A stretch of 64,000 nt of DNA from contig NZ_ARQM01000010.1 in assembly GCF_000385135.1 (NCBI RefSeq), forward strand, positions 1,922,001 to 1,986,000, given 5' to 3'. The DNA comes from Promicromonospora sukumoe 327MFSha3.1. Its GTDB lineage: Bacteria; Actinomycetota; Actinomycetes; Actinomycetales; Cellulomonadaceae. The notes under the pieces are model-generated. The model saw only the letters and a list, made by a program, of their open reading frames with translations, made no database searches and was not told where the DNA came from. Both the position numbers and the translations under genes were made by a program. Positions 5,199 through 29,866 of this stretch are shown here, one piece after another (position 1 is the first letter of the stretch; each line of letters begins with the position of its first letter).

Positions 5199-5238
5199 GC
5201 TATTCCTGCTGCTGGGCGGCGTGCCCCCCGGGGAGGGG

Positions 5239-5831: not shown

Positions 5832-5840
5832 GAGACCCAT

Positions 5841-5860: not shown

Positions 5861-5911
5861 GGCGCGAGCGGCGACCCGCTCAGGAGCACCACGATCGAGG
5901 AGCACAGCATC

Positions 5912-7066
5912 ATGCAGTTCGGGATCTTCAGTGTCAGCGACGTGACGACGGACCCGACGACGGGGCACACCCCGGACGACACCGAGCGCGTCCGCGCCAT
6001 GCTCACCATCGCCAAGCACGCGGACGAGGCAGGCCTCGACGTCTTCGCGACCGGCGAGCACCACAACCCGCCGTTCGTGGCCTCGAGCCCGACGACGATG
6101 CTCGGCTACCTCGCGGGTGTCACCAAGGACATCACCCTGTCCACGGCGACCACGCTGATCACCACGAACGACCCGGTCCGCATCGCCGAGGAGTACGCGA
6201 TGCTCCAGGTCATCAGCAACGGCCGCATGGACCTCATGATGGGCCGCGGCAACACCGGCCCCGTGTACCCGTGGTTCGGCCAGGACATCCGCCAGGGCAT
6301 CCCGCTCGCGATCGAGAACTACGCGCTGGTGCGCCGCCTGTGGACCGAGGACGTCGTGGACTGGGAGGGCAAGTTCCGCACCCCGCTGCAGGGCTTCACC
6401 GCCACCCCGCGCCCGCTGGACGGCGTGCCGCCGTTCGTGTGGCACGGCTCGATCCGCAGCCCCGAGATCGCCGAGCAGGCCGCCTACTACGGTGACGGGT
6501 TCCTGCACAACAACATCTTCTGGCCCATGAGCCACACCAAGCAGATGGTGGCGTTCTACCGCCAGCGGTTCGAGCACTACGGCCACGGCCGCGCCGACCA
6601 GGCGATCGTGGGCCTCGGCGGCCAGGTGTTCATGCGCAAGAACAGCCAGGACGCGATCACCGAGTTCCGGCCGTACTTCGACAACGCGCCCGTCTACGGC
6701 CACGGCCCCACCATGGAGGACTTCACGCGCGACACGCCGCTCACGGTCGGCTCCCCGCAGGAGGTCATCGACCGCTACGGCTCGTTCATCGACGACGTCG
6801 GCTACTACCAGCGCCAGATGTTCCTGATGGACCACGCCGGCCTGCCGCTCAAGACGGTCCTGGAGCAGATCGACATCCTCGCCACCGAGGTCGTGCCCGA
6901 GCTGCGCAAGATCGCCGACGCCAAGCGTCCCGAGGACGTGCCGGCCAACCCGCCGACGCACGCCGAGCGGGTCGCCGCGGCCCAGGCCAAGGGCGAGGCC
7001 GGCGCCACCCACGTGGGTGACGGCGGCGACGAGTTCACCGGCAAGCGGGCAGAGGAGGCGCTCTGA
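5912..7066 (+). CDS. Luciferase-like FMN-dependent monooxygenase (CE1758-type)
   Basis: A 384-aa class C flavin monooxygenase of the bacterial luciferase fold, which would use reduced FMN and O2 on an unknown small substrate. MQFGIFSVSDV opens the TIM barrel; GLDVFATGEHHNPPF, MLGYLAGVTKDITLSTATTL and the GRMDLMMGRGN glycine-rich segment are characteristic. ATG 5912 is preferred over ATG 5855 because GAGGAG lies nine bases before it and the barrel begins there. The stop overlaps the next start by one base, so it is coupled to an FMN reductase that can supply its reduced flavin. Expression is probably from the SigR-like promoter and gated by the palindrome upstream. Confidence 0.88.
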   Translation: MQFGIFSVSDVTTDPTTGHTPDDTERVRAMLTIAKHADEAGLDVFATGEHHNPPFVASSPTTMLGYLAGVTKDITLSTATTLITTNDPVRIAEEYAMLQVISNGRMDLMMGRGNTGPVYPWFGQDIRQGIPLAIENYALVRRLWTEDVVDWEGKFRTPLQGFTATPRPLDGVPPFVWHGSIRSPEIAEQAAYYGDGFLHNNIFWPMSHTKQMVAFYRQRFEHYGHGRADQAIVGLGGQVFMRKNSQDAITEFRPYFDNAPVYGHGPTMEDFTRDTPLTVGSPQEVIDRYGSFIDDVGYYQRQMFLMDHAGLPLKTVLEQIDILATEVVPELRKIADAKRPEDVPANPPTHAERVAAAQAKGEAGATHVGDGGDEFTGKRAEEAL

Positions 7067-7731
7067 TGACGGGGATCGTCCCCACCGAGGACCGGCCCCG
7101 GCGCACCATCGCCGTCGTGCACGCGGGGCTGGGCCAGCCCTCCTCCACGCGCCTGCTGGCGGACCGCCTGGCGGACGCCACCGCGCGCGAGCTGAAGGCG
7201 CTCGGCCACGACGTGACCGTCGAGGTCGTCGAGCTGCGCGACCACGGCCACGCGATCATCGACGCGATGCTCACCGGGTTCCCCACGGGTGACCTCGCCG
7301 CTGACATCGAGACGATCACGCAGGCCGACGGCATCATCGCCGTCTCGCCGCTGTTCACCACCACCTACTCGGGGCTGTTCAAGTCGTTCGTCGACATCCT
7401 CGACAAGGACGCCCTGACGGGCATGCCCGTGCTGCTCGGCGCGACCGGCGGCACGCCGCGGCACACGCTCGCGCTCGAGTACTCGATGCGCCCGCTGTTC
7501 ACGTACCTGCGGGCCGACGTCGTCACGACGTCGGTCTTCGCGGCCACGGACGACTGGGCGCAGGCCGGGGACCGCACCCGGCGCGACGACGGCGCGAGCT
7601 CGCTGCCGGAGCGCATCGAGCGGGCCGGCCGGTCCCTCGCGGCGACCATGGCGGCGCGCGGGGAGCACACCAAGCGGGACGACCCGTTCGCCAGCACCCC
7701 CAGCTTCCTGGACCTGCTCGGCGGCGACTGA
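7066..7731 (+). CDS. NAD(P)H-dependent FMN reductase (CE1759-type)
   Basis: A 221-aa flavodoxin-fold reductase: IAVVHAGLGQPSSTRLLADRL resembles the phosphate-binding start of the family, VSPLFTTTYSGLFKSFVDIL matches the flavin-binding SPxYxxSxPGxLKNxxD region, and LLGATGGTPRH is the second flavin loop. It reduces FMN with NAD(P)H and, coupled by a one-base overlap to the monooxygenase before it, should form a two-component monooxygenase system. A 16-bp hairpin terminator follows, so the operon has two genes. The partner pairing is strongly supported by context; the oxidised substrate is unknown. Confidence 0.87.
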   Translation: MTGIVPTEDRPRRTIAVVHAGLGQPSSTRLLADRLADATARELKALGHDVTVEVVELRDHGHAIIDAMLTGFPTGDLAADIETITQADGIIAVSPLFTTTYSGLFKSFVDILDKDALTGMPVLLGATGGTPRHTLALEYSMRPLFTYLRADVVTTSVFAATDDWAQAGDRTRRDDGASSLPERIERAGRSLAATMAARGEHTKRDDPFASTPSFLDLLGGD

Positions 7732-16837: not shown

Positions 16838-17818
16838 TCAGGCGCCGGGCGCGGCTTTCACCTGGTCTTTCGCCCCGGCCTTCGTTCCTACCTCGGTCTT
16901 CGCGCCGGCGGCGACCGACTCCGTGACAGCGTCCAGCGCCTCCCGCAGCCCCGCGGCCGCACCCTCGGCCTGCGCCTGGGCCGCGATGGCGGCGACGCGG
17001 GCCTGCTCGGCCTCCGCGGCCTGCCCGCGTGCGGCCTCCAGCGTGTCCCGCGAGGCGGTGAGCTCACCCTCCAGCCGGGCGACGGCCGCCTCCGCGGCGG
17101 ACCGGCCGGTCTCCGCTGCCGCGCGGTCCCGGTTCGCCTGCGCGACGTCGCCCCGGGCGGCCTCCAGCGCGGCGCGCACGTCCGTCAGCGACTCCCGCAG
17201 CCCGACGGCGGCGCCCTCGGCCTGAGCGCGGGCTGACTCGGCCTCGGACCGGGCACGCTCGGCGGCCGTGGCCGCGGCCCGGTCCCGCGCGAGCTCCTCG
17301 CGCACCGCCTCCAGCGCCTGCTGGGCGGCGGCGAGCTCACCCTCCAGCCGGGCGGCCGACGTCGCCGCCTCGGTGCGGGCCTCCTCGGCCGCGGCCCGCT
17401 CGTCCTGGGCCGTGCGTACGTGCTCCCGCGCGGTCTCCAGGAGCGCACGGAACTGCGCGAGCTCGGCGTCGGCCTCGTCCACGCGCGCCGCCAGGGCGTC
17501 CGCCTCGCCCACGACGGCACTCAGCGCCTCCTCCGACGCCGCGGTGGCCGCCTCGTGCTCCGTGCGCGCCGCCTCGATCGCCGCACCCCACAGGGCCTCC
17601 AGGCCCCGGTCCGCCAGAGAGCTCACCGCGGCGGGCAGCTCAGGGAGCGCCGAGCGTGCGTCGCTCTCGGCGGCCCTCGTCTCGCGCCACTCCCGCAGGT
17701 ACTTCGTGGCTGTCGCGTTCGAGCACCCGGCGCGCTCGCGCACGTTGGTCACCGTGACCGCCACCCCGTCGGCCGCCAGGGCGTCCGCCGCCTGGAAGAC
17801 CCGTTCCTTGTCCCGCAC
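16838..17818 (-). CDS. KfrA-like DNA-binding coiled-coil protein
   Basis: A 326-aa protein with an N-terminal KfrA-type winged helix domain (MRDKERVFQAADALAADGVAVTVTNVRERAGCSNATATKYLREWRE split over residues 1-46) and a long Ala/Glu/Arg-rich coiled coil (about 85-300), then a Lys/Ala-rich tail. KfrA proteins are autorepressing DNA-binding proteins best known from plasmid maintenance regions, where the coil promotes filament-like assembly. The repeated pattern RxAAExxRxEAxxxxARLEGELxA suggests internal duplication of the coil. GTG 17818 follows GGGGAA. A repeat-rich candidate operator lies about 105 bp upstream. No parA/parB partners are seen, so the role here is open. Confidence 0.75.
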   Translation of the reverse strand: MRDKERVFQAADALAADGVAVTVTNVRERAGCSNATATKYLREWRETRAAESDARSALPELPAAVSSLADRGLEALWGAAIEAARTEHEAATAASEEALSAVVGEADALAARVDEADAELAQFRALLETAREHVRTAQDERAAAEEARTEAATSAARLEGELAAAQQALEAVREELARDRAAATAAERARSEAESARAQAEGAAVGLRESLTDVRAALEAARGDVAQANRDRAAAETGRSAAEAAVARLEGELTASRDTLEAARGQAAEAEQARVAAIAAQAQAEGAAAGLREALDAVTESVAAGAKTEVGTKAGAKDQVKAAPGA

Positions 17819-17919
17819 GTTGTTCCCCGCTCAAGTCGTCGTGTCGATGTCCGCGATCGGACGGCAGCCGATCTCCAGCCCCATGTTTTTCGCCGCCGTA
17901 GCGCTCCTCGTAGTAGTAC

Positions 17920-17941
17920 GAGTAGTAGCGTAATACTACTC
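17920..17941. promoter_or_regulatory. Candidate KfrA-type operator
   Basis: An 8-bp inverted repeat GAGTAGTA-N6-TACTACTC, preceded on its left by further TAGTAG units (17911-17916) and followed by CCTAC. The repeated AGTAGT units look like multiple half-sites for an autoregulating repressor. Confidence 0.5.
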
Positions 17942-17963
17942 CTACTTTCGCTCCGCAAACTAC

Positions 17964-17988
17964 GCACCCGCTTTCCTGAAGCGGGTGC
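17964..17988 (-). terminator. Hairpin between the PPOX operon and the KfrA-like gene
   Basis: A perfect 10-bp stem (17964-17973 with 17979-17988) and a 5-nt loop, 150 bp after the PPOX gene stop on the minus strand; it probably ends the NmrA-like/PPOX operon before the KfrA-like promoter. Confidence 0.5.
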
Positions 17989-18139
17989 GCAGAGAGTTCG
18001 AAAATGGCTGAGTAGCAACGATCTGAGCCGCTCGGAGAGGCACTACTCCGCGCTCAGAGAGCAGATAGTGAGCACAGAATCCACGACGAATCCTGCTCGG
18101 ATCCCCGGCCGGGTCGGTCGTGACTCCCCGTGCGTCACA

Positions 18140-18565
18140 TCAGGACGCGTACCGGCGCACGCTCTCCGGGTGGATGACGACGCGCAGCAGGTCGACCCGC
18201 AGCATCCCCGCGAGAGCCTCGGCCCGGGCGGGGTCCCCGAGGTCCCAGTAGCGGGCCGCGAGGCGGGACGCCAGGTCCCGGGCGCCGTCGGCCTCCACCG
18301 TGGCGCGGCCGGCGACGGAGACCCAGTGCTCGCCCTCGCCCACGGGGGCCGCGACCACGAGCGACGCACGCGGGTCGCGCTCCAGGCGCCGCACCTTGAG
18401 CGAGTCCCGCTCCGTGAAGAGCTGGACGGTCCCGTCCGCGGCGGCCTCGAACCAGACGGGCCGCGGCTGGGGTGGCTGAGCCGGTCCGGCCACGGAGAGG
18501 AACCCGTGCAGGGGACGGGCGAGGAGCTCGAGGTCCTCGGTGGTCAGCAGGCTGGTGTCGCTCAT
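18140..18565 (-). CDS. PPOX-class (pyridoxamine 5'-phosphate oxidase fold) oxidoreductase
   Basis: A 141-aa split-barrel flavin- or F420-binding protein: HGFLSVAGPAQPPQPRPVWFEAAADGTVQLFTERDSLKVRRLERDPRASLVV is the typical core, followed by GEHWVSVAGRATVE. Members reduce quinones or other electrophiles with F420H2 or FMN; cofactor choice cannot be told here. ATG 18565 follows GAGAGGAC at a good distance. It lies 41 bp behind the NmrA-like reductase and both are probably controlled by the divergent AraC-type regulator. Confidence 0.82.
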   Translation of the reverse strand: MSDTSLLTTEDLELLARPLHGFLSVAGPAQPPQPRPVWFEAAADGTVQLFTERDSLKVRRLERDPRASLVVAAPVGEGEHWVSVAGRATVEADGARDLASRLAARYWDLGDPARAEALAGMLRVDLLRVVIHPESVRRYAS

Positions 18566-18606
18566 GGCAGTCCTCTCAGGAGATCTTCGGATGGTCGTTC
18601 GGGAGG

Positions 18607-19443
18607 TCAGGAACGCCACGCACCCGCCGCCGCGGCCCGCACGACGTACTCCTCGAAGGCACGGGGCGGCCGCCCCAGCACCGTCTCGACGTCGCCGGTC
18701 GGCCCGGCCAGCAGCCCGCGTTCCATCAGCACGAACATCTCGGCGACGTGGTGGGCGTCGTCCTCGCCCAGGCCCGCCTCGACGAGCGCCGCACGGTACG
18801 CGGCGGGGGAGACCTGCCGGTAGGTGACGGGCAGGTCGGCCGCCCGGGCGATCAGGTCGACGGCCTCGGCGAAGGTCACCCCGCGCGGCCCGGTCAGCTC
18901 GTAGGTGCGCCCGGCGTGCCGTCCGGGCTCGGTCAGCACCGCCGCCGCGACGTCGGCGACGTCCTCGAGGTCGACGAAGGGCTCCGGGACGCTCCCTGCC
19001 GGGAGCGCCAGCTCGCCGGCGACCAGCGGGGCGTGGAAGAGGTCCTCGTCGAAGTTCTGGTCGAAGTTCGACGCGCGCAGCACCGTCCATTCCAGGGCCG
19101 AGCCCCGTACGGCGTCCTCGGCCGAGCGCATGTCCAGCCCGAACGGGGAGTCGCCCCACGTGTCGGCGCCGCGGCCCGAGAGCAGGACCAGGCGCCGCAC
19201 GCCGGCGTCCTCGGCGCGGGCCACGAACTCGTGGACCGGTCCGGGCACGGACGGCGGCACCACGTAGACGGTGCCGATGTCGTGCAGCACCTGCTCCCAG
19301 CCGTTCGGGTCGGACCAGTCGAAGCGCGCCCGGCTGGACCGTGAGGCGGCACGTACCTGCGTGCCGGCCAGCCGCAGCCGGGCCGCGACCCGTCGGCCGG
19401 TCTTGCCGGTGGCGCCGAGGACGAGGGTGGTGTCGTTGCTCAT
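18607..19443 (-). CDS. NmrA-like NAD(P)-binding protein
   Basis: A 278-aa atypical short-chain dehydrogenase. The Rossmann fingerprint LVLGATGKTGRRVAARL opens the protein, then VYVVPPSVPG and LVLLSGRGADTW; the family's active-site YxxxK is absent as usual for NmrA/NAD(P)H azoreductase-like proteins, which act as redox sensors or reductases. ATG 19443 starts the Rossmann strand directly. The frame is open upstream but that part would lie inside the AraC gene. It forms an operon with the PPOX gene and faces the AraC gene across 82 bp holding a direct repeat. Confidence 0.83.
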   Translation of the reverse strand: MSNDTTLVLGATGKTGRRVAARLRLAGTQVRAASRSSRARFDWSDPNGWEQVLHDIGTVYVVPPSVPGPVHEFVARAEDAGVRRLVLLSGRGADTWGDSPFGLDMRSAEDAVRGSALEWTVLRASNFDQNFDEDLFHAPLVAGELALPAGSVPEPFVDLEDVADVAAAVLTEPGRHAGRTYELTGPRGVTFAEAVDLIARAADLPVTYRQVSPAAYRAALVEAGLGEDDAHHVAEMFVLMERGLLAGPTGDVETVLGRPPRAFEEYVVRAAAAGAWRS

Positions 19444-19476
19444 GCCACCGATCCAACGGCACCCGTTCGGACGAAT

Positions 19477-19505
19477 CCATGGGTAAAGCGCCAGATCCCA
19501 TGGGT
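19477..19505. promoter_or_regulatory. Direct-repeat operator for the AraC-type regulator
   Basis: CCATGGGT occurs twice in direct orientation, at 19477-19484 and 19498-19505, exactly 21 bp apart, that is two helical turns. This is the geometry of AraC-family half-sites, and it lies between the divergent NmrA-like and AraC genes. Confidence 0.55.
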
Positions 19506-19525
19506 GATCGTCTAGCCTCGGTGGG

Positions 19526-20490
19526 ATGGACGCCTTCAGTGACCTGATCCGCGGGGTGCGCGCCCACGGCTCCCTGTTCGGCAGCTCGACCCTGACCCCT
19601 CCCTGGTCCCTGCACTTCGTGGACGGCGCGCCGCTGACCCTGTGCACGGTCCTGGGCGGCGACGGGTGGGTCGTCCCCGAGCAGGGTCCGGCCGTGCTGC
19701 TGCGCGCCGGGCAGACGGTCGTCGTGCGCGGCCCCGAGACGTTCACCTTCGTCGACGAGGTCGGGACGTCGGCCGAGCCGGTCGCGTGCGGCGAGTTCTG
19801 CGCGACGCCCGAGCTGGGCGGGACCCGGCACCGGCTCGGCTGGCACGACGACGTCGACACCCCGGGCAGGCCCGGCGCGACCACCCTGATCGTCGGCGCC
19901 TACCCGGTCCGCGGCGAGATCAGCCGACGCCTGCTGGACGCGCTGCCCCGGTGCTGCGCGTGGGCGCCGGGGGCACCTCCGACGCCGTCCTGGAGCACCT
20001 CGCTGCCGAGCTCGCCGTCGACACCCCGGGCCAGCAGGTGGTGCTCGACCGGCTCCTGGACTGGATGCTGGTCTGCACGCTGCGCGACTGGTTCGACCGG
20101 CCCGGCGGCGAGCCCCCGCGCTGGTGGGCCGCGCAGCGGGACCCGGTGGTCGGCGACGCGCTGCGCCTGCTGCACGCCGAGCCCGCGGCGCCCTGGACGG
20201 TCGGCTCGCTGGCCGACCGGACCGGCGTCTCGCGCTCCACCCTGGCCAAGCGGTTCGCCGACCAGGTCGGCGAACCGCCGCTGACCTACCTGACCCGCTG
20301 GCGCATGACGCTCGCGGCGGACCTCCTGACCGACCGCGAGGCGGCGACCGTGGCCCAGGTCGCGCGCGCCGTCGGCTACACCGACGCGTTCGCGTTCAGC
20401 GCCGCGTTCAAGCGGACGCGGGGCATGAGCCCGAGCGTCTGGGCCGCCCGCGGGTTAGACCCGGCGCCTACCGGTGCGGGACGTCCCTGA
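19526..20490 (+). pseudogene. AraC-family regulator with cupin domain, broken by a one-base frameshift
   Basis: Together two frames encode a full AraC/XylS regulator: residues 1-140 form the AraC-type cupin ligand domain (MDAFSDLIRGVRAHGSLFGS to RGEISRRLLDALP), and the second frame carries the rest (PVLRVGAGGTSDAVLEHLAAEL) and two helix-turn-helix motifs (GSLADRTGVSRSTLAKRF; VAQVARAVGYTDAFAFSAAFKR). The frames meet at a run of four C at 19946-19949; one extra C would restore DALPPVLRVGAG. Either the gene is inactivated or the assembly lost a base. It lies divergent from the NmrA/PPOX operon, its likely target, and overlaps the convergent esterase gene by 23 bp. Confidence 0.8.
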
Positions 20491-21688
20491 CGAACACGAT
20501 CGCGTCGGTCTCTGCGAGGTCGGCCGGGTCCAGGGGCGCGTACCCGAACCAAGGGGAGACGCGGGCCGCGAGCGCCGCCCCGCCGTCGGCTCCCGCGCGG
20601 TGCAGCGCTGCCGGCCCACGCGGATCCACGAGGACCTCGTCCCGGCCGAGCCCGTACAGCAGCCCCTCGACCGTGTCCGGCTCCGGCGCCTCCACGCCCT
20701 GGTCCCGCAGCGTCCCGAGCGCCGTGGCCACGAACGCGTACCGGTCGCCGAGCCGGGTGCTGACGAGTGCGCCGGCGCCCCACCACTCCAGGCGTGGGTG
20801 GTCCCACATGGCCATGGTGCTGCGTCCCCGCTGCAGGTGGCTGTTGTGGGCGCTCACCAGCGCGGGTCCGCGTTCGGCCAGGGCGAGCAGGTTGTCGGCG
20901 ATCATCGCGTCGCGGATCCCGAGCAGGCGGGTCATGCGGGCGGGCGACGGGTCTGCCATCCAGAAGTGGTAGCGCAGCAGGCCGGTGGCGGTGCGTGCGT
21001 ACAGGTGGGCCCGGTCCCGCTCCTGGGGCGTGGAGCCGGCCAGGAGCTGCGGGGCGTGCGTCTCCAGGAGGGTCGCCAGGTCGTCGGCGAGCAGGCGCAG
21101 CTCCCTCGCCTCGGCGGACTGTCCCACCGACCGCGCGGGGTCCATCATCGCGGCGGGCTCGGTCCAGCGGTCGTCCGGGCCGATCATGCGGTCCAGGACG
21201 TCGGCTGTGCAGGGCAGCAGGTCGGCGTCCACGCGGGCGGACAGGTAGTCGTGCAGCGCGACGAGGGCCGCGCGGGGGCTGGCGGCCGCCGAGATCTCCA
21301 GCGGCCCGTCGGCGCCGGCGAAGCGGACGTGCTCCGCGGCCGGCCGGCCCTCGTTGTGGGCGCGCATCCAGGCCACGAGCTCGCGGTTGCCGGGGTACGC
21401 GCCCCACTCGTGGCTCAGGCCGCGCGCCAGCACGTCGTCGAGGTCGCCCCGGCCGGTCGTCACGTAGTCGTCGACGAGCAGGCCGGCGAGGCAGTCGGTC
21501 TCCAGGGCGATCGTGCGGTAGCCGTGCTGTTCCACGAGCTCGCGGAACAGGGCGTTGCGCGTCCGAAGCAGGTCCGGCGCGCCGTGGGTGGGCTCGCCGA
21601 GGGCCAGGATCCGGGGCCGGTCCCTCAGCAGGGCCAGCACGGAGGCGGCGTCGACGGGATGAACGGTGTCCTCGATGTCTCTCACCAT
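20468..21688 (-). CDS. Erythromycin esterase-like hydrolase
   Basis: A 406-aa member of the erythromycin esterase family, enzymes that open the macrolactone ring of 14-membered macrolides; related proteins act on other substrates. Family landmarks are present: Glu32 and His35 in LGEPTHG, Glu63 in ALETD, VRFAGADGP near 121-129, RDAMIADN near 259-266, and His281/His284 in SAHNSHLQRG. The gene is divergent from a double-MerR regulator across 58 bp that hold an inverted repeat. Whether erythromycin is a substrate cannot be decided from sequence, so the resistance role is inference. Confidence 0.83.
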   Translation of the reverse strand: MVRDIEDTVHPVDAASVLALLRDRPRILALGEPTHGAPDLLRTRNALFRELVEQHGYRTIALETDCLAGLLVDDYVTTGRGDLDDVLARGLSHEWGAYPGNRELVAWMRAHNEGRPAAEHVRFAGADGPLEISAAASPRAALVALHDYLSARVDADLLPCTADVLDRMIGPDDRWTEPAAMMDPARSVGQSAEARELRLLADDLATLLETHAPQLLAGSTPQERDRAHLYARTATGLLRYHFWMADPSPARMTRLLGIRDAMIADNLLALAERGPALVSAHNSHLQRGRSTMAMWDHPRLEWWGAGALVSTRLGDRYAFVATALGTLRDQGVEAPEPDTVEGLLYGLGRDEVLVDPRGPAALHRAGADGGAALAARVSPWFGYAPLDPADLAETDAIVFVRDVPHR

Positions 21689-21692
21689 TCCC

Positions 21693-21708
21693 TCAACGGT
21701 ATCGTTGA
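21693..21708. promoter_or_regulatory. Inverted repeat between esterase-like and MerR genes
   Basis: TCAACG-N4-CGTTGA forms a perfect palindrome in the 58-bp divergent promoter region, followed by CTCAGTTGAG. This is the expected place for the MerR-type regulator to act on both genes. Confidence 0.5.
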
Positions 21709-21746
21709 AGGCTCAGTTGAGACCTGGCCCTGGAACGGAGCGTTGG

Positions 21747-22526
21747 GTGGCGCAGAACTTTCAAACGGGTGTCCGGCTGCGGCCGGTCGACCTGGCCCGT
21801 GGGCACGGTCTGTCCACGCAGGCGGTCCGCAACTACGAGGACGCCGGCATCCTCCCCGCCACCGACCGCACGCCCGCCGGCTACCGCGCCTACACGCCCC
21901 GGCACGCCCGGGCGCTGCGCGCCTTCCTGGCCCTGGTCCCCGGGCACGGCCACCCGGTCGCGGCCGCGATCATGCGTGCGGTGCACGACGGCGCCGTCGG
22001 CGAGGCCTTCCGGCTGATCGACGAGAGCCACGCGCTGCTCCTGGAGGACCGCCGGACGCTCCGCGCCGTCGAGGACGCCCTGCGCGACCTGGACGCCACG
22101 ACTGCCGGACCGCCGTCCGCCCGGCCGGCCCCGCGGACCGAGCCGCAGGACACGTTCATCGGCCCCCTCGCGGCGCAGTTGCGCATCCGGCCCGCCACCC
22201 TGCGCACCTGGGAGCGCGCGGGCCTGGTGCGCCCGCGCCGCGACCCGCAGACCGGCTACCGGGTCTACGACGCCGCCGCGGTGCGCGACGCCCGCCTGAC
22301 GCACCAGCTCCGCCGCGGCGGCTACCTGCTGGAGCAGATCGTGCCGCTGATCGAGCGGGTGCGGACGGCCGGCGGCCTCGCGCCCCTGGAGGCGACCCTG
22401 GCGGAGTGGCAAAGCCGCCTCACCGACCGCGGCCGGGCCATGCTCGCCGGGGCCGCCGCCCTGGAGGCCTACCTCGCCGCAGGAACCGGCCTCACCGGCC
22501 GGCCCGCAGCCGCGCCGCCTGCTTGA
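21747..22526 (+). CDS. Double-domain MerR regulator (TioE-like)
   Basis: A 259-aa regulator with two MerR-type DNA-binding domains: LRPVDLARGHGLSTQAVRNYEDAGILP (about 10-36) and LRIRPATLRTWERAGLVRPRRDPQTGYRVY (about 148-178), each followed by helical segments. Two MerR domains in one chain is the architecture called TioE in actinobacteria. GTG 21747 is chosen for the CGGAG sequence before it and because upstream codons would run through the divergent promoter. It probably controls the erythromycin esterase-like gene. It overlaps the convergent sigma gene by 35 bp. Confidence 0.82.
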   Translation: MAQNFQTGVRLRPVDLARGHGLSTQAVRNYEDAGILPATDRTPAGYRAYTPRHARALRAFLALVPGHGHPVAAAIMRAVHDGAVGEAFRLIDESHALLLEDRRTLRAVEDALRDLDATTAGPPSARPAPRTEPQDTFIGPLAAQLRIRPATLRTWERAGLVRPRRDPQTGYRVYDAAAVRDARLTHQLRRGGYLLEQIVPLIERVRTAGGLAPLEATLAEWQSRLTDRGRAMLAGAAALEAYLAAGTGLTGRPAAAPPA

Positions 22527-23661
22527 TCAGGTGCGTGCGCTCGGCGGCGCTGGTCGCCCGGTCCGCGGCGGACGTGTAGTGGCGCACCGCAAGCTCGGTG
22601 TCGTCGGCGCGCTCGTACAGGTGGGCCGCGACGGCGTCCCACCGGGACAGGCCCGGGTCGACGTCGGCCAGCGCGGCCAGGCCGGCGCGCGGGCCGTCCA
22701 CCTGCCCCACGGCGACGGCGCGGTTGAGCGCGACGACGGGGCTGTCCGTGAGCCCGGCGAGCTCGTCGTACCACTGCAGGATCTGCGGCCAGTCCGTCTC
22801 GGCGGCGACGGGGGCGTCGTCGTGCAGGGCGGCGATGGCCGCCTGGGCCTGGTACTGGCCGAGGTGGTCGCGGGACAGGGCGGTCTGGAGCACGTCGACG
22901 CCCTCGGTGATCATCGCCGTGTCCCACAGCGTCCGGTCCTGCTCGTCGAGCGGCACCAGCTCGCCGGACGCGGTGTACCGGGCGCCGCGTCGCGCGTGGT
23001 GCAGCAGCATCAGGGCCAGCAGCCCGGCGATCTCGGGGTCGGCCCCCTCGGGCCGGGCCGCCGAGGACACGGTGAGCTGGCGGGTGAGCCGGATCGCCTC
23101 GTCGGCCAGCGAGATCTCGCCCGTGAAGCCCTCGTTGAAGATCAGGTACAGCACGTGCAGCACCGCGCGGACGTCGCCGGGCGTGTCGAACCGCTCGCCG
23201 GTGATGGTGCGCTTGGCGCGCGAGATCCGCTGCGCCATCGTGGCCTCGGGGACCAGGAACGCCCGCGCGATCTGCGCCGTCGTCAGCCCGCCCACGGCCC
23301 GGAGCGTCAGCGCGATGGCCGACGCCGGGCTGAGCGCCGGGTGGCAGCAGCGGCTCAGGAGCAGCAGCGTGTCGTCCGACTGCTCGGTGGGGCCCTGCGG
23401 CGGCTCGTCACCCAACCGTTCCTCGCGGCGCCGCCGGGCGGCCTCGGACCGCTGGAGGTCGATCAGCTTGCGGCCGGCCACCCGCAGCAGCCACGCCTTG
23501 GGGTCGTCCGGCGCCTCGTCGGGCCAGTGCCGCACGGCCTCGATCAGGGCCTCCTGGACGGCGTCCTCGGCCGTCGCGAAGTCTGCTCCGCGACGGACGA
23601 GGACGCCGAGGACCTGCGGTGCGAGCGTCCGCACCCGGTCGTTCACCGCGTCGTGGTCCAC
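22492..23661 (-). CDS. ECF42-type RNA polymerase sigma factor with C-terminal TPR-like domain
   Basis: A 389-aa extracytoplasmic-function-like sigma factor. Region 2 is visible in FATAEDAVQEALIEAVRHWPDEAPDDPKAWLLRVAGRKLIDLQR, region 4 in LTLRAVGGLTTAQIARAFLVPEATMAQRISRAKRTI, and a long C-terminal extension (about 190-389) ends in helical repeats (AVAAHLYERADDTELAVRHYTSAA). This arrangement defines group ECF42, which lacks an anti-sigma factor and is instead linked to DGPF-domain proteins; one is encoded 25 bp upstream in the same operon. GTG and ATG alternatives are not needed, as the start gives the usual length. Confidence 0.9.
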   Translation of the reverse strand: MDHDAVNDRVRTLAPQVLGVLVRRGADFATAEDAVQEALIEAVRHWPDEAPDDPKAWLLRVAGRKLIDLQRSEAARRRREERLGDEPPQGPTEQSDDTLLLLSRCCHPALSPASAIALTLRAVGGLTTAQIARAFLVPEATMAQRISRAKRTITGERFDTPGDVRAVLHVLYLIFNEGFTGEISLADEAIRLTRQLTVSSAARPEGADPEIAGLLALMLLHHARRGARYTASGELVPLDEQDRTLWDTAMITEGVDVLQTALSRDHLGQYQAQAAIAALHDDAPVAAETDWPQILQWYDELAGLTDSPVVALNRAVAVGQVDGPRAGLAALADVDPGLSRWDAVAAHLYERADDTELAVRHYTSAADRATSAAERTHLIKQAARLRAGR

Positions 23662-23686
23662 GTCCAGCCTTCCTCGGCCCGCCGGC

Positions 23687-24103
23687 TCACTCGGAGATCG
23701 TCAGGTCCTCGCCGAGGAACGGCCGCACCTCGAGCCACTCGTAGATCGGCTTGCCGCCGACGCCGGGCGCTGCGGACAGCTCGGCCGCCGCCTCGTAGGC
23801 GCGCTCCTGGGACTCGACGTCGATGATCATCCAGCCGGCGATGAGGTCCTTGGTCTCCGCGAACGGCCCGTCCGTCACCGGCGGGCGGCCCTCGCCGCCG
23901 TACCGCACGAACGTGCCCTCCGGCGAGAGCGCGCCCTCGCCCACGAACTCACCGCTCTCGGTCAGCTTCTCGGCGAACCGGCGCATGTAGTCGATGTGCT
24001 CGGTGATCTCCTGCGGGCTCCACTGGTCCATCGGCACGTCCGTGCCGGGCACCCACTCGGGGCCGCCGCGCCGGTAGTGCTTCAGCAGCAGGTACTTCGC
24101 CAT
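23687..24103 (-). CDS. DGPF/YciI-family protein
   Basis: A 138-aa YCII-related ferredoxin-like fold protein with the diagnostic PVTDGPFAETKDLIAGW motif (about 81-97). DGPF proteins are the conserved partners and targets of ECF42 sigma factors; their biochemical activity is unknown. The ATG at 24103 is preceded by GGGAGA. It is first in a two-gene operon with the ECF42 gene, and an ECF42-type promoter sequence is found about 83 bp upstream, so positive autoregulation is likely. A 16-bp GC palindrome (24123-24138) lies in its leader. Confidence 0.88.
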   Translation of the reverse strand: MAKYLLLKHYRRGGPEWVPGTDVPMDQWSPQEITEHIDYMRRFAEKLTESGEFVGEGALSPEGTFVRYGGEGRPPVTDGPFAETKDLIAGWMIIDVESQERAYEAAAELSAAPGVGGKPIYEWLEVRPFLGEDLTISE

Positions 24104-24185
24104 GGTTGTCTCCCTGGGTCACGGGCCCCGCGGGGCCCTGCGTCGTGGACGCGGTACGGACGCGGTTCCGCGCCCTCGACCCTAG

Positions 24186-24212
24186 GACGGAGCCCTCGTC
24201 GGGTTCTCGACA
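24186..24212 (-). promoter_or_regulatory. Predicted ECF42 promoter
   Basis: On the minus strand TGTCGA (24212-24207), 17 bases, CGTC (24189-24186). Published ECF42 promoters have TGTCGA at -35 and CG[A/T]C at -10, so the match is complete. It drives the DGPF-sigma operon. Confidence 0.6.
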
Positions 24213-24246
24213 TCAGGATCACCGATTCCCGAGAAAAAAGTTCGGG

Positions 24247-25710
24247 TCAGCCCGCGCGGGTGCGCGCGGCCCGGATCGGCGTGACGGCCGCAGGCCCCTG
24301 GGCCGCGTCGCCCGTGACACCAGGCCCGGACCCGGGCACGACGGCGGACGCCTGGAACGCCGCGCTCATCGTCTCGCCCAGGGCGTCGAGGTCGTCCTCG
24401 AACAGGCCCGCGTACGTGGACAGCGTCAGCACCGGCGACTCGTGCCCGAGCATGCGCTGCACCGCCTTGACCGTGGCCCCGCCGGAGATCGCCAGCGACG
24501 CCGCGGTGTGCCGCAGGTCGTGCAGCGTGAGCGTGTCGAAGTCCTCGGCGCCCGGCGCGAGCGTGGTCCGCGACAGCGCCGCCAGCAGCCGGGTGCGGCT
24601 GACCTTCTCGCCGCGCGTCATCCCCGCCCGCGCCCGGTCGCCGGCGGCCACCAGCGCCCACGTCTCGGGGTCGGTCACGCCCGTCGCCTCCACGCCGCCC
24701 TCGGACTGGAGGCGGCGGACCGCGGCGACCACGCCGTCGTCGTACAGGCCCGGGGCGGGCAGACCGAGGGCCTGGCGCAGCGTGCGGACGGCGCCGCCGG
24801 CCGCGTCGACCGCGGGCCGGAACGCGGAGCGGTCGAAGCTCTCCCGGCGCAGCGGTCCGCCGCGGGTCCCGGTGAACAGCAGGTCGCCGGGCGCGCGCCC
24901 CGCCGCCTGGTCCGCCACGGCGTCCACCAGGGAGGACGGCAGCGGCACCTCGCGTCGCGCGTGGGTCTTGGTGTCGCCGAGCAGCAGCGTGCCGTCGTCC
25001 AGCCGGGTGTAGGCCTTGGTCACGTGCACGCGGCGGCGCAGCGGGTCGACGTCGGCCACCGTCAGCGCGCTGACCTCGCCCCAGCGCAGGCCCGTCAGGG
25101 CCGTGAGCAGCACGAGCGTGCGCGTCTGTGCCGACGTCGTGGCGTCCGCGACGCGGCGCAGCTGCTCGTGGGACAGGTACCGGTGCGGCTTGGTCTTCGG
25201 TGCGCGGGGCAGGGCCGGCACTTTGCCCGACGGCGTCCGCGCGGGATTGGTGCGCAGCCGGCGCGCGTCCACCGCGGCATCCAGGAGGGCCACCAGGAGC
25301 CGGGCCGCGTCCCGGCGTCGGGCGGGCGAGGCGGTCTCGCCGGTGGTGGGGGAGGTCATGGTGGCGGCCCAGCGGGCGACGTCCTCGTGGGTGACCTGGC
25401 GCAGCGGGCGGTCCCCGAACGTGGGCGCGACCAGCGACCGGAAGCGTTCGTGCTCGGCCTCGACCGTGCGGGGCGCGCGGTCCACGCGGGCCTCCTGCCA
25501 GGTGGCGAACCACTCGGACACGGTGACGCGGCCCGCGGCCGGGTCGACCCACTCGGCGTGCTTGCCCGCCTCCTCCTGCCGCCGCGCCTCCGCGAGCGCC
25601 TCGCGCCGGACCGTGAAGCGACGCGTGCTGCGCAGGCGCCCGTCGACGCGGTATCGGCCGACGTAGCCGGTGCGGCCCTCGGAGTCGGTGCGCTGCTCGG
25701 TGTACGCCAC
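24247..25710 (-). CDS. Tyrosine recombinase (phage-type integrase) with inserted peptidoglycan-binding-like domain
   Basis: A 487-aa integrase. Residues 10-60 are an AP2-like arm-binding domain (GYVGRYRVDGRLRSTRRF), 62-160 a SAM-like core-binding domain, and the catalytic domain carries Arg209 (TGLRWGE), Lys248 (GDTKTH), His397/Arg400 (LHDLRHT), His423 (LGHE) and nucleophile Tyr433 (LSTYAG). Between Lys248 and His397, residues 308-356 read VRTLRQALGLP then AAVRRLQSEGGVEATG and DPETWALV, which looks like a PG_binding_1 three-helix module inside the catalytic domain. No tRNA, excisionase or phage genes lie nearby, so it is either a remnant or a stand-alone recombinase. Confidence 0.85.
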   Translation of the reverse strand: MAYTEQRTDSEGRTGYVGRYRVDGRLRSTRRFTVRREALAEARRQEEAGKHAEWVDPAAGRVTVSEWFATWQEARVDRAPRTVEAEHERFRSLVAPTFGDRPLRQVTHEDVARWAATMTSPTTGETASPARRRDAARLLVALLDAAVDARRLRTNPARTPSGKVPALPRAPKTKPHRYLSHEQLRRVADATTSAQTRTLVLLTALTGLRWGEVSALTVADVDPLRRRVHVTKAYTRLDDGTLLLGDTKTHARREVPLPSSLVDAVADQAAGRAPGDLLFTGTRGGPLRRESFDRSAFRPAVDAAGGAVRTLRQALGLPAPGLYDDGVVAAVRRLQSEGGVEATGVTDPETWALVAAGDRARAGMTRGEKVSRTRLLAALSRTTLAPGAEDFDTLTLHDLRHTAASLAISGGATVKAVQRMLGHESPVLTLSTYAGLFEDDLDALGETMSAAFQASAVVPGSGPGVTGDAAQGPAAVTPIRAARTRAG

Positions 25711-25770
25711 GGTGGCAGCGTAGTCGGGGCGTTCGGCCTGGTCGTGGTCGCGCGGGGCGTGTCGACGACG

Positions 25771-27024
25771 TCACGGCGCGACGGGCTGCAGCGCGCTCTT
25801 GTGGTCCTCCAGGTTCCGCAGGCGCCGTACGGGGCTCGCCGCGAGGAGCGCGGGCCCGAGGAGCAGCACGAAGGCCGACCCGAGCAGCACGGCACGGGTC
25901 CCGGCCGTCTCGGCGACCGCGCCGGCGATCAGCCCGCCGAGGGGGATGCAGCCCCAGGACACGAAGCGGACAGTGCCCATGACGCGGGACAGGAGCTCGG
26001 GCGGGCTGGCGACCTGCCGGTAGGTGCGCGTGACGACGCTGCCGGGGACGACGCTGGCCGCGAAGACGAGGTTGCCGACAGCGAAGCAGAGCCAGCCCCA
26101 GTGGCCGGCGCCGGCGGGGATCAGCAGGGCACCCGCGAACCCGACGAGCCCGTCGAACAGCACGACGCGCGCCGAGCCGAACCGCCGCACGAGCCAGGGC
26201 GTCGCCCAGGCCGCGAGGAGCGCCCCGACACCTTCGGTCGCCAGCAGCAGCCCGACCACGGCGGCGGGTGCGTGCAGCTCGCGCACCAGGTAGATCGCGA
26301 ACAGGGCGAGCTGGGCGCCGCAGACCGTGTTGACCACGCACGCCCACCAGGTGCACGGCGCCAGGACGGGGTGGGTGGTGACGAACCGCCAGCCCTGGGC
26401 GATCCGGCGGCGCAGCGGGGTCGGGTCGTCGTCGCCGGGCTGGCGGCGTTCGGGCAGGGTGCGCAGCAGCACGGCGGAGGCGACGTAGGACACCGCGTCG
26501 AGGAGCAGTGCGGGCGCGGCGCCGACGAGCTGGACGACCAGCCCGCCCAGCGAGGGTCCGCCGAGCTCGGTCACCGCGTGCGTGCCGGACATGAGCGAGT
26601 TGCGGCTCGTGAGCTGGTCGCGCGGCACCACGGAGGTGATGAACGTGGTGCTGGCGCTGAAGAACAGCACCTCAGCGAGGTTGAGCGTGAGCGCCACGGC
26701 GAACAGCTGGGCGAGCGTCAGGTGTCCGGTCCACCAGGCCAGGGGCACCGACACGATGGCGAGCGCCCGGACGAGGTCGGTGCCGATCTGGGTGGCGCGC
26801 AGCGGCCAGCGCTGCACGATCGCGCCGGCGGGCAGCCCGATCACGATCCAGGCCAGGTAGGACGCCGCCGCGAGCAGTCCGGTCTCGAACGGTCCGGCGT
26901 CGAGCACGAGCACGGCGGTCAGGGGCAGGGCGATCTTCGTGACCGCGGAGCCCATGTTGCTGGTGGTCGTGGCCGCCCAGAAGGTCCAGAAGGAACGTGC
27001 CGCGGTCGGTGCGGTCGTCGTCAT
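25771..27024 (-). CDS. MFS exporter
   Basis: A 417-aa major facilitator with about twelve hydrophobic segments, of the short drug-exporter type seen in actinobacteria (FWAATTTSNMGSAVTKIALPLTAVLVL at the start; GLLLATEGVGALLAAWATPWLVRRFG in the second half). Proton-driven efflux of an unknown compound is the family role. ATG 27024 is preceded by GGAGA; longer frames run into the divergent promoter. It faces the HxlR-peroxiredoxin gene across about 140 bp with an inverted repeat, so that regulator probably controls it. Confidence 0.82.
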   Translation of the reverse strand: MTTTAPTAARSFWTFWAATTTSNMGSAVTKIALPLTAVLVLDAGPFETGLLAAASYLAWIVIGLPAGAIVQRWPLRATQIGTDLVRALAIVSVPLAWWTGHLTLAQLFAVALTLNLAEVLFFSASTTFITSVVPRDQLTSRNSLMSGTHAVTELGGPSLGGLVVQLVGAAPALLLDAVSYVASAVLLRTLPERRQPGDDDPTPLRRRIAQGWRFVTTHPVLAPCTWWACVVNTVCGAQLALFAIYLVRELHAPAAVVGLLLATEGVGALLAAWATPWLVRRFGSARVVLFDGLVGFAGALLIPAGAGHWGWLCFAVGNLVFAASVVPGSVVTRTYRQVASPPELLSRVMGTVRFVSWGCIPLGGLIAGAVAETAGTRAVLLGSAFVLLLGPALLAASPVRRLRNLEDHKSALQPVAP

Positions 27025-27050
27025 GGTGTGTCTCCGTGGTGGGCGAGTGG

Positions 27051-27065
27051 GTTCCATTTTGGAAC
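27051..27065. promoter_or_regulatory. Operator between MFS and HxlR-peroxiredoxin genes
   Basis: GTTCC-N5-GGAAC is a perfect inverted repeat located 27 bp before the MFS ATG in the divergent promoter region, a plausible site for the HxlR-type regulator. Confidence 0.5.
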
Positions 27066-27167
27066 TGACTGGCCGTACAGTGGCAGAAGGACGGCTGCGG
27101 GCGCAACGTCCTGGCACCGGCGCCGCGTGAGGGCGCCCGGACGGAGACCTGCGAGAGGATGGCGCGC

Positions 27168-28055
27168 ATGCGCAAGGAGGATCTGGCCGACGCCGACTGC
27201 GGGATCGCGCAGTCGCTCGGCGTCATCGGCGACTGGCAGAGCCTGCTGATCGTGCGCGAGGCCGCGGCCGGCGTCTCACGCTTCGACGCGCTCGCCCACG
27301 AGCTCGGGTTCAGCAGGCGCGCCCTGACCGAGCGCCTCGGCCGGCTCGTGGACGACGGCGTCCTGGAGCGGGTCCCGTACTCGGCGCACCCGCCCCGGTT
27401 CGACTACCGGCTCACCCGCCGCGGCGAGGGGCTCGTACCGGTGCTCGTCGCGCTGCAGGAGTGGGGGACGCGCCACGTGATGGGCGACGGCACCGTCTCG
27501 GGCGCCGTCGGGGACGCCGAGGCGCGACGGGTGCACGCACTGGTCGGCACGCGGGTGCCGGACGTGACGCTCACGGCCCACGACGGCGCCGCCGTCAGCC
27601 TCGCGAACCCCGACCGCTGGACCGTGCTGTTCTTCTTCCCGGGTGCCTACGCTCCCGACACGGACGGGTACCCCGCCGGCTGGAGCGACATTCCCGGCAC
27701 CCGCGGCTGCACGCTGGAGTGCGTCACGTACGCCGGGCGCACCGCGGCGCTCGCCGACGCCGGCGCGCGGGTGCTCGGCGTATCCACGCAACGCCCCGAC
27801 CAGCTCGCCGCCTTCGCCGCGCACGCGGGGCTGCCCTACGCGCTGGCGTCGGACCAGGACGGACTGGCGGCGTCCGCCCTGCGCCTGCCCGTGTTCCGGG
27901 CCGCCGGGACGGACCGGCTCAAGCGGACCACGCTCCTGGTCGCGCCCGACGGCACCGTGCGCCGGGTCCAGGCGCCGGTGACCGACCCGGCCGGCTCCGT
28001 GGACGACATGCTCGACGCGCTCCGCGCCGAGATCGGGCAGACCGTGCCCGGTTGA
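27168..28055 (+). CDS. HxlR-type regulator fused to a peroxiredoxin domain
   Basis: A 295-aa two-domain protein. Residues 1-105 are an HxlR winged helix (CGIAQSLGVIGDWQSLLIVREA, FSRRALTERLGRLVDDGVLERVPY) with Cys11 at the place used for redox sensing in HypR-like members. Residues 123-295 are an AhpC/TSA-Bcp-type thioredoxin fold (VGTRVPDVTLTAHDG, WTVLFFFPGAY, RGCTLEC, RVLGVSTQRPDQLAAFA) with Cys181 in the peroxidatic position and Cys185 nearby, and a 14-residue insertion before the active site. ATG 27168 is preferred to ATG 27159, which touches the AGAGG ribosome site. It could sense peroxide directly and control the divergent MFS gene. The stop codon lies in a 15-bp tandem repeat. Confidence 0.83.
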   Translation: MRKEDLADADCGIAQSLGVIGDWQSLLIVREAAAGVSRFDALAHELGFSRRALTERLGRLVDDGVLERVPYSAHPPRFDYRLTRRGEGLVPVLVALQEWGTRHVMGDGTVSGAVGDAEARRVHALVGTRVPDVTLTAHDGAAVSLANPDRWTVLFFFPGAYAPDTDGYPAGWSDIPGTRGCTLECVTYAGRTAALADAGARVLGVSTQRPDQLAAFAAHAGLPYALASDQDGLAASALRLPVFRAAGTDRLKRTTLLVAPDGTVRRVQAPVTDPAGSVDDMLDALRAEIGQTVPG

Positions 28056-28085
28056 GTCGTGCCCGGTTGAGTCGTGCCCGGTGAG
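28044..28085. repeat. 15-bp tandem repeat across the stop codon of the HxlR-peroxiredoxin gene
   Basis: GTGCCCGGTTGAGTC occurs at 28044-28058 and 28059-28073, with a partial third copy at 28074-28085. The TGA stop codon is inside the first unit and is repeated in the others. Confidence 0.9.
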
Positions 28086-28092
28086 GCGGCCG

Positions 28093-28788
28093 TCAGAGCG
28101 GGCGGGCCTGCCCGGTCAGGGCGTTCCACCCGATGCGGCCGCCGAAGCCGAGGAGCACGACGCCGGTCACGCGGTCGGTGACGCGGGCGATCGCGCGCCC
28201 GGACAGCCAGCGCTTGGCCAGGCCCGCGGCGTGGATCAGCAGGCCGAGCCAGGCCAGCCCGAGGACGTTGTGCTCGGTCGCCAGGAGGACGCCCATGAGC
28301 AGGTGCGGCACGCCGTCGGGCAGGAACTGGGGGATCGTGGCCAGGTAGAACACCCCGACCTTGGGGTTGACCAGGTTGGTCGTGGCGCCGACCGCGAAGG
28401 AGCGCCACCGGGACCGGGTCACGACCGGCAGGGCGGCATCGGACACGACTGTGCCGGACGGGACGGCGCCGTCGGGCAGCGCGTCGTAGCGTCCCGGGCG
28501 GAAGCTGGTCCACAGCAGCCGGCCGCCGAGCCAGGCGAGGTAGGCCGCGCCGGCCAGGGTCAGCGTCCGGTAGGCGGTCTCGGAGGCGGCGAGCACCGCC
28601 GTCGCGCCCACGGCGGCGGCCACGCCCCACGCCAGGGTGCCCACGTTGATGCCGAGGGCCGTCGCGTAGGCGTGCGCGCGGCCGCTGACGACGGCGGTGC
28701 GCAGCACGAGCGCGCTGTCCAGGCCCGGCATGATCGTCAGGGGGATCGCGACCAGCGCGAACAGGAGCATCGCCTCGGGCACCGTCAC
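28093..28788 (-). CDS. LysE-family amino acid/metabolite exporter
   Basis: A 231-aa inner-membrane translocator of the LysE/RhtB family. MTVPEAMLLFALVAIPLTIMPG holds the conserved PGP-like turn (here IMPGLD), followed by GINVGTLAWGVAAAVGA, YLAWLGGRLLW and the FAVGATTNLVNPKVGVFYLATIPQFL signature. About six helices are expected. GTG 28788 is chosen because helix 1 starts there; no good ribosome site is seen, so translation may be leaderless. Substrate is unknown. It is divergent from galE with only 55 bp between starts. Confidence 0.83.
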   Translation of the reverse strand: MTVPEAMLLFALVAIPLTIMPGLDSALVLRTAVVSGRAHAYATALGINVGTLAWGVAAAVGATAVLAASETAYRTLTLAGAAYLAWLGGRLLWTSFRPGRYDALPDGAVPSGTVVSDAALPVVTRSRWRSFAVGATTNLVNPKVGVFYLATIPQFLPDGVPHLLMGVLLATEHNVLGLAWLGLLIHAAGLAKRWLSGRAIARVTDRVTGVVLLGFGGRIGWNALTGQARPL

Positions 28789-28843
28789 GCGCGCGAACGT
28801 ACCAGTGCCCGGACCGTGCGGCCGAGCCGGTATTTTGGAAGCC

Positions 28844-29866
28844 ATGCGCGTTCTCGTCTCAGGTGGGGCCGGCTACATCGGCTCGCACACCGTCCTTGCC
28901 CTGGTCGCCGCCGGTCACGACGTCATCGTGGTCGACGACTTCTCCAACTCGAAGCCCTCCGTCCAGGGTCGCCTGGAGGCGCTCGCGGGCCGGGCGATCC
29001 CGTTCCACGCCTTCGACCTGACCGACGCCGACAAGACCGAGCGGCTGTTCGCGCACGAGCACATCGACGCCGTGATCCACTTCGCGGGGTTCAAGGCGGT
29101 GGGGGAGTCGGTGGCCCGGCCGCTGGACTACTACCGCAACAACCTCGAGTCGACGTTCGCCCTGGCGGCGTCGATGGCCAAGTACGGGGTCACCAGGCTG
29201 GTGTTCTCCTCCTCGGCGACGGTCTACGGCGAGAAGGCCCCGGTGCCGTACACGGAGGACTACGAGTACCTGTCCTCGTCCTCGCCGTACGGGCAGACCA
29301 AGGTGATGATCGAGCGCGTCCTGTCGGACATCGCGCAGATCTCCGAGGGCTGGAAGGTGGCGCTGCTGCGCTACTTCAACCCGGTCGGGGCGCACGCGAG
29401 CGGCGACATCGGCGAGGACCCGCAGGGCATCCCGAACAACCTGATGCCGTTCATCGCGCAGGTCGCGGTGGGGCGCCGGGACAAGCTCACGGTGTTCGGG
29501 GGCGACTACCCGACCGCGGACGGCACGGCAGAGCGGGACTACCTGCACGTGACCGACCTCGCCGCCGGGCACGTGGCGGCCCTGGAGCACCTGGACGACA
29601 TGGCCGAGCCGGCGCGGGCGTTCAACCTGGGCACCGGTACCGGCACGTCGGTGCTGGAGCTGCTCAAGGCGTTCGAGCGAGCCGTGGGGCGCGAGCTGCC
29701 CTACGAGATCGGGCCGCGCCGCGCCGGGGACCTGCCCGCGTTCTGGGCCGACCCGACGCGCGCCAACACCGAGCTGGGCTGGCACGCCACCAAGACGATC
29801 GACGACATGTGCGCCGACACCTGGCGCTGGCAGTCGCAGAACCCCGAGGGGTTCCCGGGCAGCTGA
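28844..29866 (+). CDS. galE: UDP-glucose 4-epimerase
   Basis: Interconverts UDP-glucose and UDP-galactose with bound NAD. The 340-aa product has the Rossmann motif GGAGYIG (about 7-13), DLTDADK, the catalytic SSSATVYG and Tyr/Lys in SPYGQTK, and the substrate loop NPVGAH, as in standard GalE of the extended SDR family. ATG 28844 follows GGAAG. It is monocistronic, bracketed by a divergent LysE gene and a strong convergent terminator, so it serves sugar-nucleotide supply rather than a local gal operon. Confidence 0.95.
   Translation: MRVLVSGGAGYIGSHTVLALVAAGHDVIVVDDFSNSKPSVQGRLEALAGRAIPFHAFDLTDADKTERLFAHEHIDAVIHFAGFKAVGESVARPLDYYRNNLESTFALAASMAKYGVTRLVFSSSATVYGEKAPVPYTEDYEYLSSSSPYGQTKVMIERVLSDIAQISEGWKVALLRYFNPVGAHASGDIGEDPQGIPNNLMPFIAQVAVGRRDKLTVFGGDYPTADGTAERDYLHVTDLAAGHVAALEHLDDMAEPARAFNLGTGTGTSVLELLKAFERAVGRELPYEIGPRRAGDLPAFWADPTRANTELGWHATKTIDDMCADTWRWQSQNPEGFPGS

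Follow-up and report, generated by a model that had tools for sequence, protein, structure and literature searches.

The window (the whole 64-kb stretch of DNA that was analysed) carries on its reverse strand, at positions 24247-25710, an open frame that starts with GTG and encodes a protein of 487 amino acids. The protein matches Pfam PF00589 (Phage_integrase) with an E-value of 3.6e-21 and, over its whole length, the PHROGs integrase family phrog_1 with an E-value of 2.2e-59. Predicted N-terminal strands and a helix (residues 3-51), read as an arm-binding domain, are followed by predicted core-binding helices (residues 64-148) and by a predicted catalytic domain from about residue 178; judged from hydropathy alone, there is no hydrophobic stretch at the N-terminus. 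The core-binding and catalytic folds are present in the AlphaFold model (24 sequences; mean pLDDT 84.2), for which the nearest solved structures are tyrosine recombinases. The top match is the arm-domain tyrosine integrase Tn1549 Int (6emz/6emy; residues 61-452, VIA Z 21.8, rmsd 3.2, 298 residues aligned), with which it also has the active site in common.

The active site is complete, as had been claimed in the original prediction. R209, K248, H397, R400, H423 and Y433, making up the R-K-H-R-H-Y set, are invariant in all 20 aligned recombinases. This alignment contains the window and 19 of 26 relative loci, the other seven being a further full-length carrier (L006), three fragments (L019, L021 and L023) and three loci without the insert described below (L024-L026). 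In one of the fragments, L021 from P. kroppenstedtii DSM 19349, a recombinase start of 35 residues (4582-4686) lies between runs of N, detached from the rest of the gene, which is likely to be a scaffolding artefact. By its active site and modelled fold the protein is a member of the tyrosine recombinase superfamily, with strand exchange as its putative activity. The structural matches also include 8a0a and 9rgl, of the MrpR/SroF-type repressors, in which the recombinase fold has been reused in regulation; as described in the available passages on MrpR, that protein is without the active-site residues (PMC10516654), whereas all six are kept here. A second, distinct tyrosine recombinase is encoded in the window on the forward strand at 57948-59102 (PF00589 at 96.4 bits, with Phage_int_SAM_1), and in the genome as a whole PF00589 has seven matches, of which two fall inside the gene at 24247-25710, giving about six genes.

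Between Lys248 and His397 the original prediction had placed a PG_binding_1 fold (residues 308-356), and profile, model and structural comparison all bear this out, locating it at residues 306-358 (24637-24795, reverse strand) with helices at 307-314, 325-337 and 348-359. Pfam PF01471 (PG_binding_1) matches residues 318-352 with 28.5 bits (E-value 1.7e-6; cut-off 23) and the isolated 60-residue piece with 31.7 bits, and PHROGs groups the insert with endolysins (phrog_1224, E-value 2.5e-5). All 20 aligned sequences match PF01471 when E-values up to 1 are counted, in place of the curated cut-off, the best being 2.9e-11. In the recombinase model the ten-residue blocks over 301-380 have pLDDT values of 88-97, and modelled alone (residues 303-393) the insert reaches a pLDDT of 91.4 and a pTM of 0.81. 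The predicted fold spans about residues 304-363 and is followed by an extra helix at 366-379 and then by patch III. Alignment, model and charge together delimit this basic helix, which contains the invariant K369, and its linker as residues 359-391 (24538-24636, reverse strand).

Foldseek on the insert alone gave weak matches, none with an E-value below 0.001. Among 206 chains aligned with VIA, eight entries lead with Z-scores of 5.3-7.1, the next standing at 3.1: SleC (9h68), CtpB, 4xxt, phiKZ gp144 (3bkh), the AP3 endolysin, 5tv7, a Zn DD-peptidase (1lbu) and EpsAB. SleC is the closest (Z 7.1, rmsd 1.8 over 60 residues). Going by their names, six of the eight are enzymes of the cell wall or bind peptidoglycan, and the other two, CtpB and EpsAB, we take to carry a PG-binding domain. 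According to the tool's own note a Z-score below 8 can mean a common arrangement, and absence from its lists excludes nothing, so that the case for the fold leans on profile, model and match list jointly. On this footing the insert is a three-helix PG_binding_1 fold, placed in the loop that runs from the last helix ahead of patch III to the HxxR helix. A chance match, or the misreading of ordinary recombinase helices that would have refuted the original prediction, was ruled out by the PF01471 profile, the insert model, the structural matches and the bimodal spacing given below. The PF01471 domains of SleC, the Zn DD-peptidase and gp144 are like the insert in profile and fold but belong to cell-wall enzymes, whereas here the domain lies inside a DNA recombinase.

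In integron integrases the I2 segment lies nearer to the catalytic lysine than to patch III. Insertions in the catalytic domain are already known, such as integron I2 and the Tn916-type β-insertion (PMC8138268, PMC5871717, PMC7790495, PMC4792948), and as far as the available passages of these papers show they have other folds and, apparently, other places than the PG-binding insert. Integron integrases likewise possess an extra segment in the catalytic domain that was acquired late (PMC7790495, PMC4792948); compared by description only, I2 is an α-helix of about 20 residues and differs in fold from the insert. The β-hairpin insertion of Tn1549 Int sits in the small β-sheet according to the passages available (PMC8138268, PMC5871717), whereas here a stretch of 89 residues with a PG-binding fold precedes the HxxR helix. 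Among the matches listed from the open-access literature none described a tyrosine recombinase with a PG-binding domain, and the word peptidoglycan is absent from the main text of PMC8138268.

Across 72 unique recombinases the distance between the positions that match residues 302 and 392 has a bimodal distribution, with 3-23 residues in 44 of them and 74-136 residues in 28. The survey of other integrases proposed with the original prediction found the insert in recombinases beyond the Promicromonosporaceae-type clade as well. A profile built from the insert and patch III gave matches across the insert in 15 genomes out of 396 from the order, of which nine belong to family f1 (one of these, G283, matches only from position 45), one to f3 and five to f7, and in 2 of 394 genomes of the class, both in f1; the remaining listed matches begin at position 67 or later, most of them after 90. 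Carriers L039, L041 and L048 lie above the PF01471 cut-off, as does the copy in G382 (L113, 44.8 bits), while L042 and L044 do not exceed it. The Myceligenerans-type carriers L010, L011, L014 and L038 have 15-46 extra insert residues, located in the first loop.

Viral relatives appear to be without the insert. None of the 387 phage records matching the recombinase has a single place that covers 80% of the query, and of the viral-contig relatives 80 were measured (80 of at least 379 matches), none with the insert and all with a spacing of 3-25 residues. Five of eleven earlier viral loci (L060-L064), the other six being duplicates or left out of the measurement, also have no insert. With L048 as the query no viral-contig relative was found; 57 phage records, judged like all the phage matches by coverage only, cover 80% of this query at low identity, and among the top rows the phage sequence falls short of the matched part of the query by about 57-80 residues. 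A phage origin of the insert was rejected for the lack of any phage record covering 80% of the recombinase query and of any insert in the 80 viral relatives measured.

To follow the insert relative to the rest of the protein, quick trees were built from the backbone with the insert removed. In these, 23 Promicromonosporaceae-type rows group with a support of 99, forming the main clade, and L041 falls among insert-free integrases. A single origin of the insert together with its backbone was rejected, as one clade of all carriers fails the AU test on 72 rows (p 0.007) and does so again when eight long rows are left out (p 0.0002). One group of the main clade with L041, named after the tree was seen, is also rejected (p 2.5e-5); the main clade with L048 (p 0.35) and L041 with L048 (p 0.25) are not rejected, so that the rejection of a single origin depends on L041, and these tests as a whole depend on few rows. 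On a profile of the main-clade insert L041 scores 48, L113 43 and L048 37 bits, against 30 bits for the best other PG_binding_1 domain from the same genomes, and L042 and L044 score only 17 bits, below several other PG_binding_1 domains. The simplest reading of these sequence comparisons may be that one integrase-type PG-binding module has moved between backbones; separate captures by different integrases are possible.

The recombinase gene is found in all 13 Promicromonospora genomes, in two of them as a partial match, and stands there without a recognised mobile element. It occurs in 8 of 18 Isoptericola genomes and is thus dispensable in that genus. The first gene after it in Promicromonospora encodes a YCII-domain protein (23687-24103, reverse strand in the window), and a galE-like epimerase gene (28697-29866, forward strand) lies within the fetched 6-kb flanks of 19 of the 20 loci of full-length carriers, the exception being L022. 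Another neighbour is found at 16838-17818 on the reverse strand. This gene, of 326 codons, scores 64.7 bits on the KfrA_N domain PF11740 (cut-off 26.1) and by this score is of the KfrA type, with autoregulation and filament formation as putative properties.

In a family draw of 121 genomes both genes are present in 24, the recombinase alone in two (G292 and G799), the kfrA-type gene alone in one (G835) and neither in 94. A kfrA-type gene thus accompanies the recombinase in 24 of 26 carriers, a linkage inflated by relatedness; the two surveys of this draw list the same genomes where visible. All seven Isoptericola carriers in the draw hold both genes, and the draw supersedes an earlier count, without a positive control, in which none of eight Isoptericola genomes lacking the recombinase had a kfrA-type neighbour. 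Wherever both genes share a contig (23 cases), kfrA lies downstream of the recombinase and in the same orientation. In six Isoptericola loci and in Antribacter soli its frame opens 70-132 bp past the stop codon of the recombinase, and further away elsewhere. In the window the gap is 6.4 kb and across Promicromonospora it is 4-21 kb, so that the link may be a relic in this genus. Compared with about 100 bp in Isoptericola, the interval at 17818-24247 has grown to hold the YCII gene and others, presumably sigma-factor-like and esterase-like genes.

AGTAG/CTACT repeats lie upstream of kfrA at 17909-17946 on the reverse strand and form a putative KfrA operator. The available description of KfrA from plasmid RA3 gives its operator as a set of five repeats of 9 bp that occur in both orientations (PMC7783346), a likeness to the window gene that extends to the KfrA_N domain. 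The RA3 gene is borne on a plasmid, whereas the kfrA-type gene here is chromosomal and linked to a recombinase. No description of KfrA paired with an integrase was found among the matches listed from the open-access literature.

Close before kfrA stands a palindrome of 31 bp, TGCGCACCCGCTT-CAGGA-AAGCGGGTGCGTA (17961-17991, reverse strand), with 13-bp arms and, in the window strain, one outer mismatch, which is a putative core site of the recombinase. It is present in all 17 relative loci that reach kfrA, as well as in the window, where it has one copy and where shuffled sequences yielded none. Across 21 aligned loci CACCCGC and AAAGCGGGTG are invariant and the inner arms nearly so, and in the 18 loci measured 103-219 bp separate the palindrome from the kfrA coding motif that follows it. 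The outer six pairs show double changes, with a covariation score of 0.189 against 0.125, above all 500 shuffles. The covariation is nevertheless mixed, since two of five measures, the number of pairs with double changes (185 of 500) and that of pair types (175 of 500), do not rise above the shuffles, and at every one of the six outer pairs 3-8 of 20 sequences fail to pair. It is possible that the palindrome functions as RNA, forming a hairpin. A separate motif, TGACCTGC, was considered as an arm site and dropped, being patchy among the loci and absent in the window.

The palindrome resembles the anticodon arm of a tRNA-Arg(CCU) gene in a mobile relative. This gene stands directly after the recombinase in L022, L129 and L162; L162, which has the sequence of L022, probably comes from that genome, leaving two cases of such adjacency. 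In L022 (Micrococcales bacterium KH10) a 5-kb stretch at 2441-7530 is bounded by a perfect 49-bp direct repeat of one tRNA half and is apparently an element integrated in tRNA-Arg(CCU); a second att copy or a repeat of this type was found in neither L129 nor L162. The palindrome of L009 is identical to the anticodon arm of the L022 tRNA at 20 of 21 bases and that of the window at 18 of 20. A further insert-bearing integrase (L041, from G179), at 8470-9967 of L124, has its end 66 bp away from a gene for tRNA-Ser(CGA) and an HTH_17 gene in its vicinity, from which it follows that the insert does not occur with tRNA-Arg only.

These relatives raise the question of whether the window gene is simply the integrase of a mobile element, the locus still being a small integrative element whose insert tunes the choice of att site as other accessory segments do. 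The tRNA genes next to L022, L129 and the L124 integrase and the 49-bp repeats of L022 would fit this, as would HTH_17 excisionase-like genes near several relatives (above the Pfam cut-off in L124 and L128, below it in L127 and L129). The window locus, on the other hand, has no tRNA att site or flanking repeat of the kind seen in L022: there is no tRNA gene in the 64 kb, the other Promicromonosporaceae loci among the 26 relatives have none except for a tRNA-Ser in L009, and no direct repeats at 23000-29000 were judged convincing, general repeats around the recombinase gene being dismissed as GC-rich noise. The gene is moreover retained throughout Promicromonospora with common neighbours. An ordinary mobile integrase therefore seems rather unlikely here, although the chance of it is a real one.

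It is about as doubtful that the palindrome serves only as an operator for KfrA, or as a terminator, and is unrelated to the recombinase. Its position ahead of kfrA would be expected of an operator, but this would leave the likeness to the tRNA-Arg arm unaccounted for. It would also leave unexplained that in six Isoptericola loci and Antribacter soli the palindrome lies 24-48 bp past the stop codon of the recombinase, which is where the mobile relatives have their tRNA. Two kfrA genes without a linked recombinase, which are distant (44-45% identity), also have no palindrome, allowing up to four mismatches, but do have AGTAG/CTACT repeats. The palindrome thus seems to be tied to the recombinase and the AGTAG repeats to KfrA. 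The palindrome pattern was not found in IMG/VR.

Selection on the recombinase differs markedly between its parts. As medians over 12 chosen ortholog pairs, dN/dS is 0.084 for the arm- and core-binding parts and 0.128 and 0.055 for the two catalytic parts. The lowest value is that of residues 392-456, containing the stretch from patch III to the nucleophile (H397-R400-H423-Y433; 24412-24522, reverse strand), and purifying selection on a complete active site is supported. The helix and linker have 0.217 and the PG-binding fold the highest value, 0.384, which is 3-7 times that of the recombinase parts. In 19 of the 20 aligned sequences the fold has a net negative charge and in one it is neutral (median -3.5), while the helix and linker are basic (median +4.5). 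Six carriers outside the clade, which lack the basic helix or differ in charge, have fold charges of +3 (L042), 0 (L041) and -1 to -4 (the others).

The suggestion in the original prediction that the insert is a new module for regulation or DNA contact is only half borne out. Regulation is a possible, putative function; as for DNA contact, the PG-binding fold does not look the part and only the added helix is basic. If the insert were a DNA-contact domain, it would widen the footprint next to the recognition helix in the manner of the β-hairpin of Tn1549 Int or the integron I2 helix. Its location right before the HxxR helix and the basic residues 359-391 would agree with this, and catalytic-domain insertions elsewhere shape or bind DNA as far as the available passages describe them (PMC5871717, PMC4792948). 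The fold itself, however, is positively charged in none of the 20 sequences, and it evolves fastest and its loops can be longer by as many as 46 residues, in contrast to the putative core site, which hardly varies. A DNA-reading surface is expected to be neither acidic nor fast-evolving and we think such a role unlikely; from charge and rate alone, docking or positioning is favoured for the fold in the main clade. It is very improbable that the insert still binds a ligand, senses cytosolic muropeptides and couples recombination to cell-wall turnover: the fold is kept, with T41, G42, T48 and W49 (insert alignment numbering) invariant in 15 insert sequences, but these residues may serve the fold alone and a DNA enzyme in the cytosol would meet the ligand only through recycling.

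Taken together, it is probable, if only just, that the gene encodes a domesticated chromosomal integrase with a PG_binding_1 fold in its catalytic domain, which would act at the palindrome and control kfrA or nearby DNA, with the insert serving in docking or positioning. The catalytic domain of a tyrosine recombinase would have acquired the fold before the HxxR helix. The order of recombinase, core site and kfrA without a tRNA matches the circular attP form, suggesting the fixation in the chromosome of an element, or of an integrative plasmid, with its attP intact. The recombinase would bind the palindrome as a symmetric dimer and would still cut and join DNA there, and recombination at this site could control kfrA or the surrounding DNA. 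The PG-binding fold would no longer serve the wall and may instead dock or be positioned beside the active site, touching another subunit or an accessory protein, while the basic helix at 366-379 may touch the DNA backbone in the main clade. A bolder version of this domesticated integrase, in which a host-fixed active recombinase employs the captured wall-binding fold for docking or as a switch in the cytosol and works on a perfected tRNA-derived palindrome so as to control a DNA-organising gene of the kfrA type, the module itself being passed between integrase backbones, we regard as improbable as a whole.

If this bolder version holds, this would be a chromosomal locus run by a recombinase, of a kind for which no description was found in the literature searched. 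The integron I2 helix indicates, in the passages available, that an insertion in the catalytic domain has given recombinases a new substrate at least once (PMC7790495). An insert that is larger, recurs and has a fold known for quite another job makes it testable how recombinases come by their control domains. The locus also gives an example in which a bacterial genus has retained an integrase along with a putative core site and a partner gene, and the tRNA-associated relatives are available for comparison.
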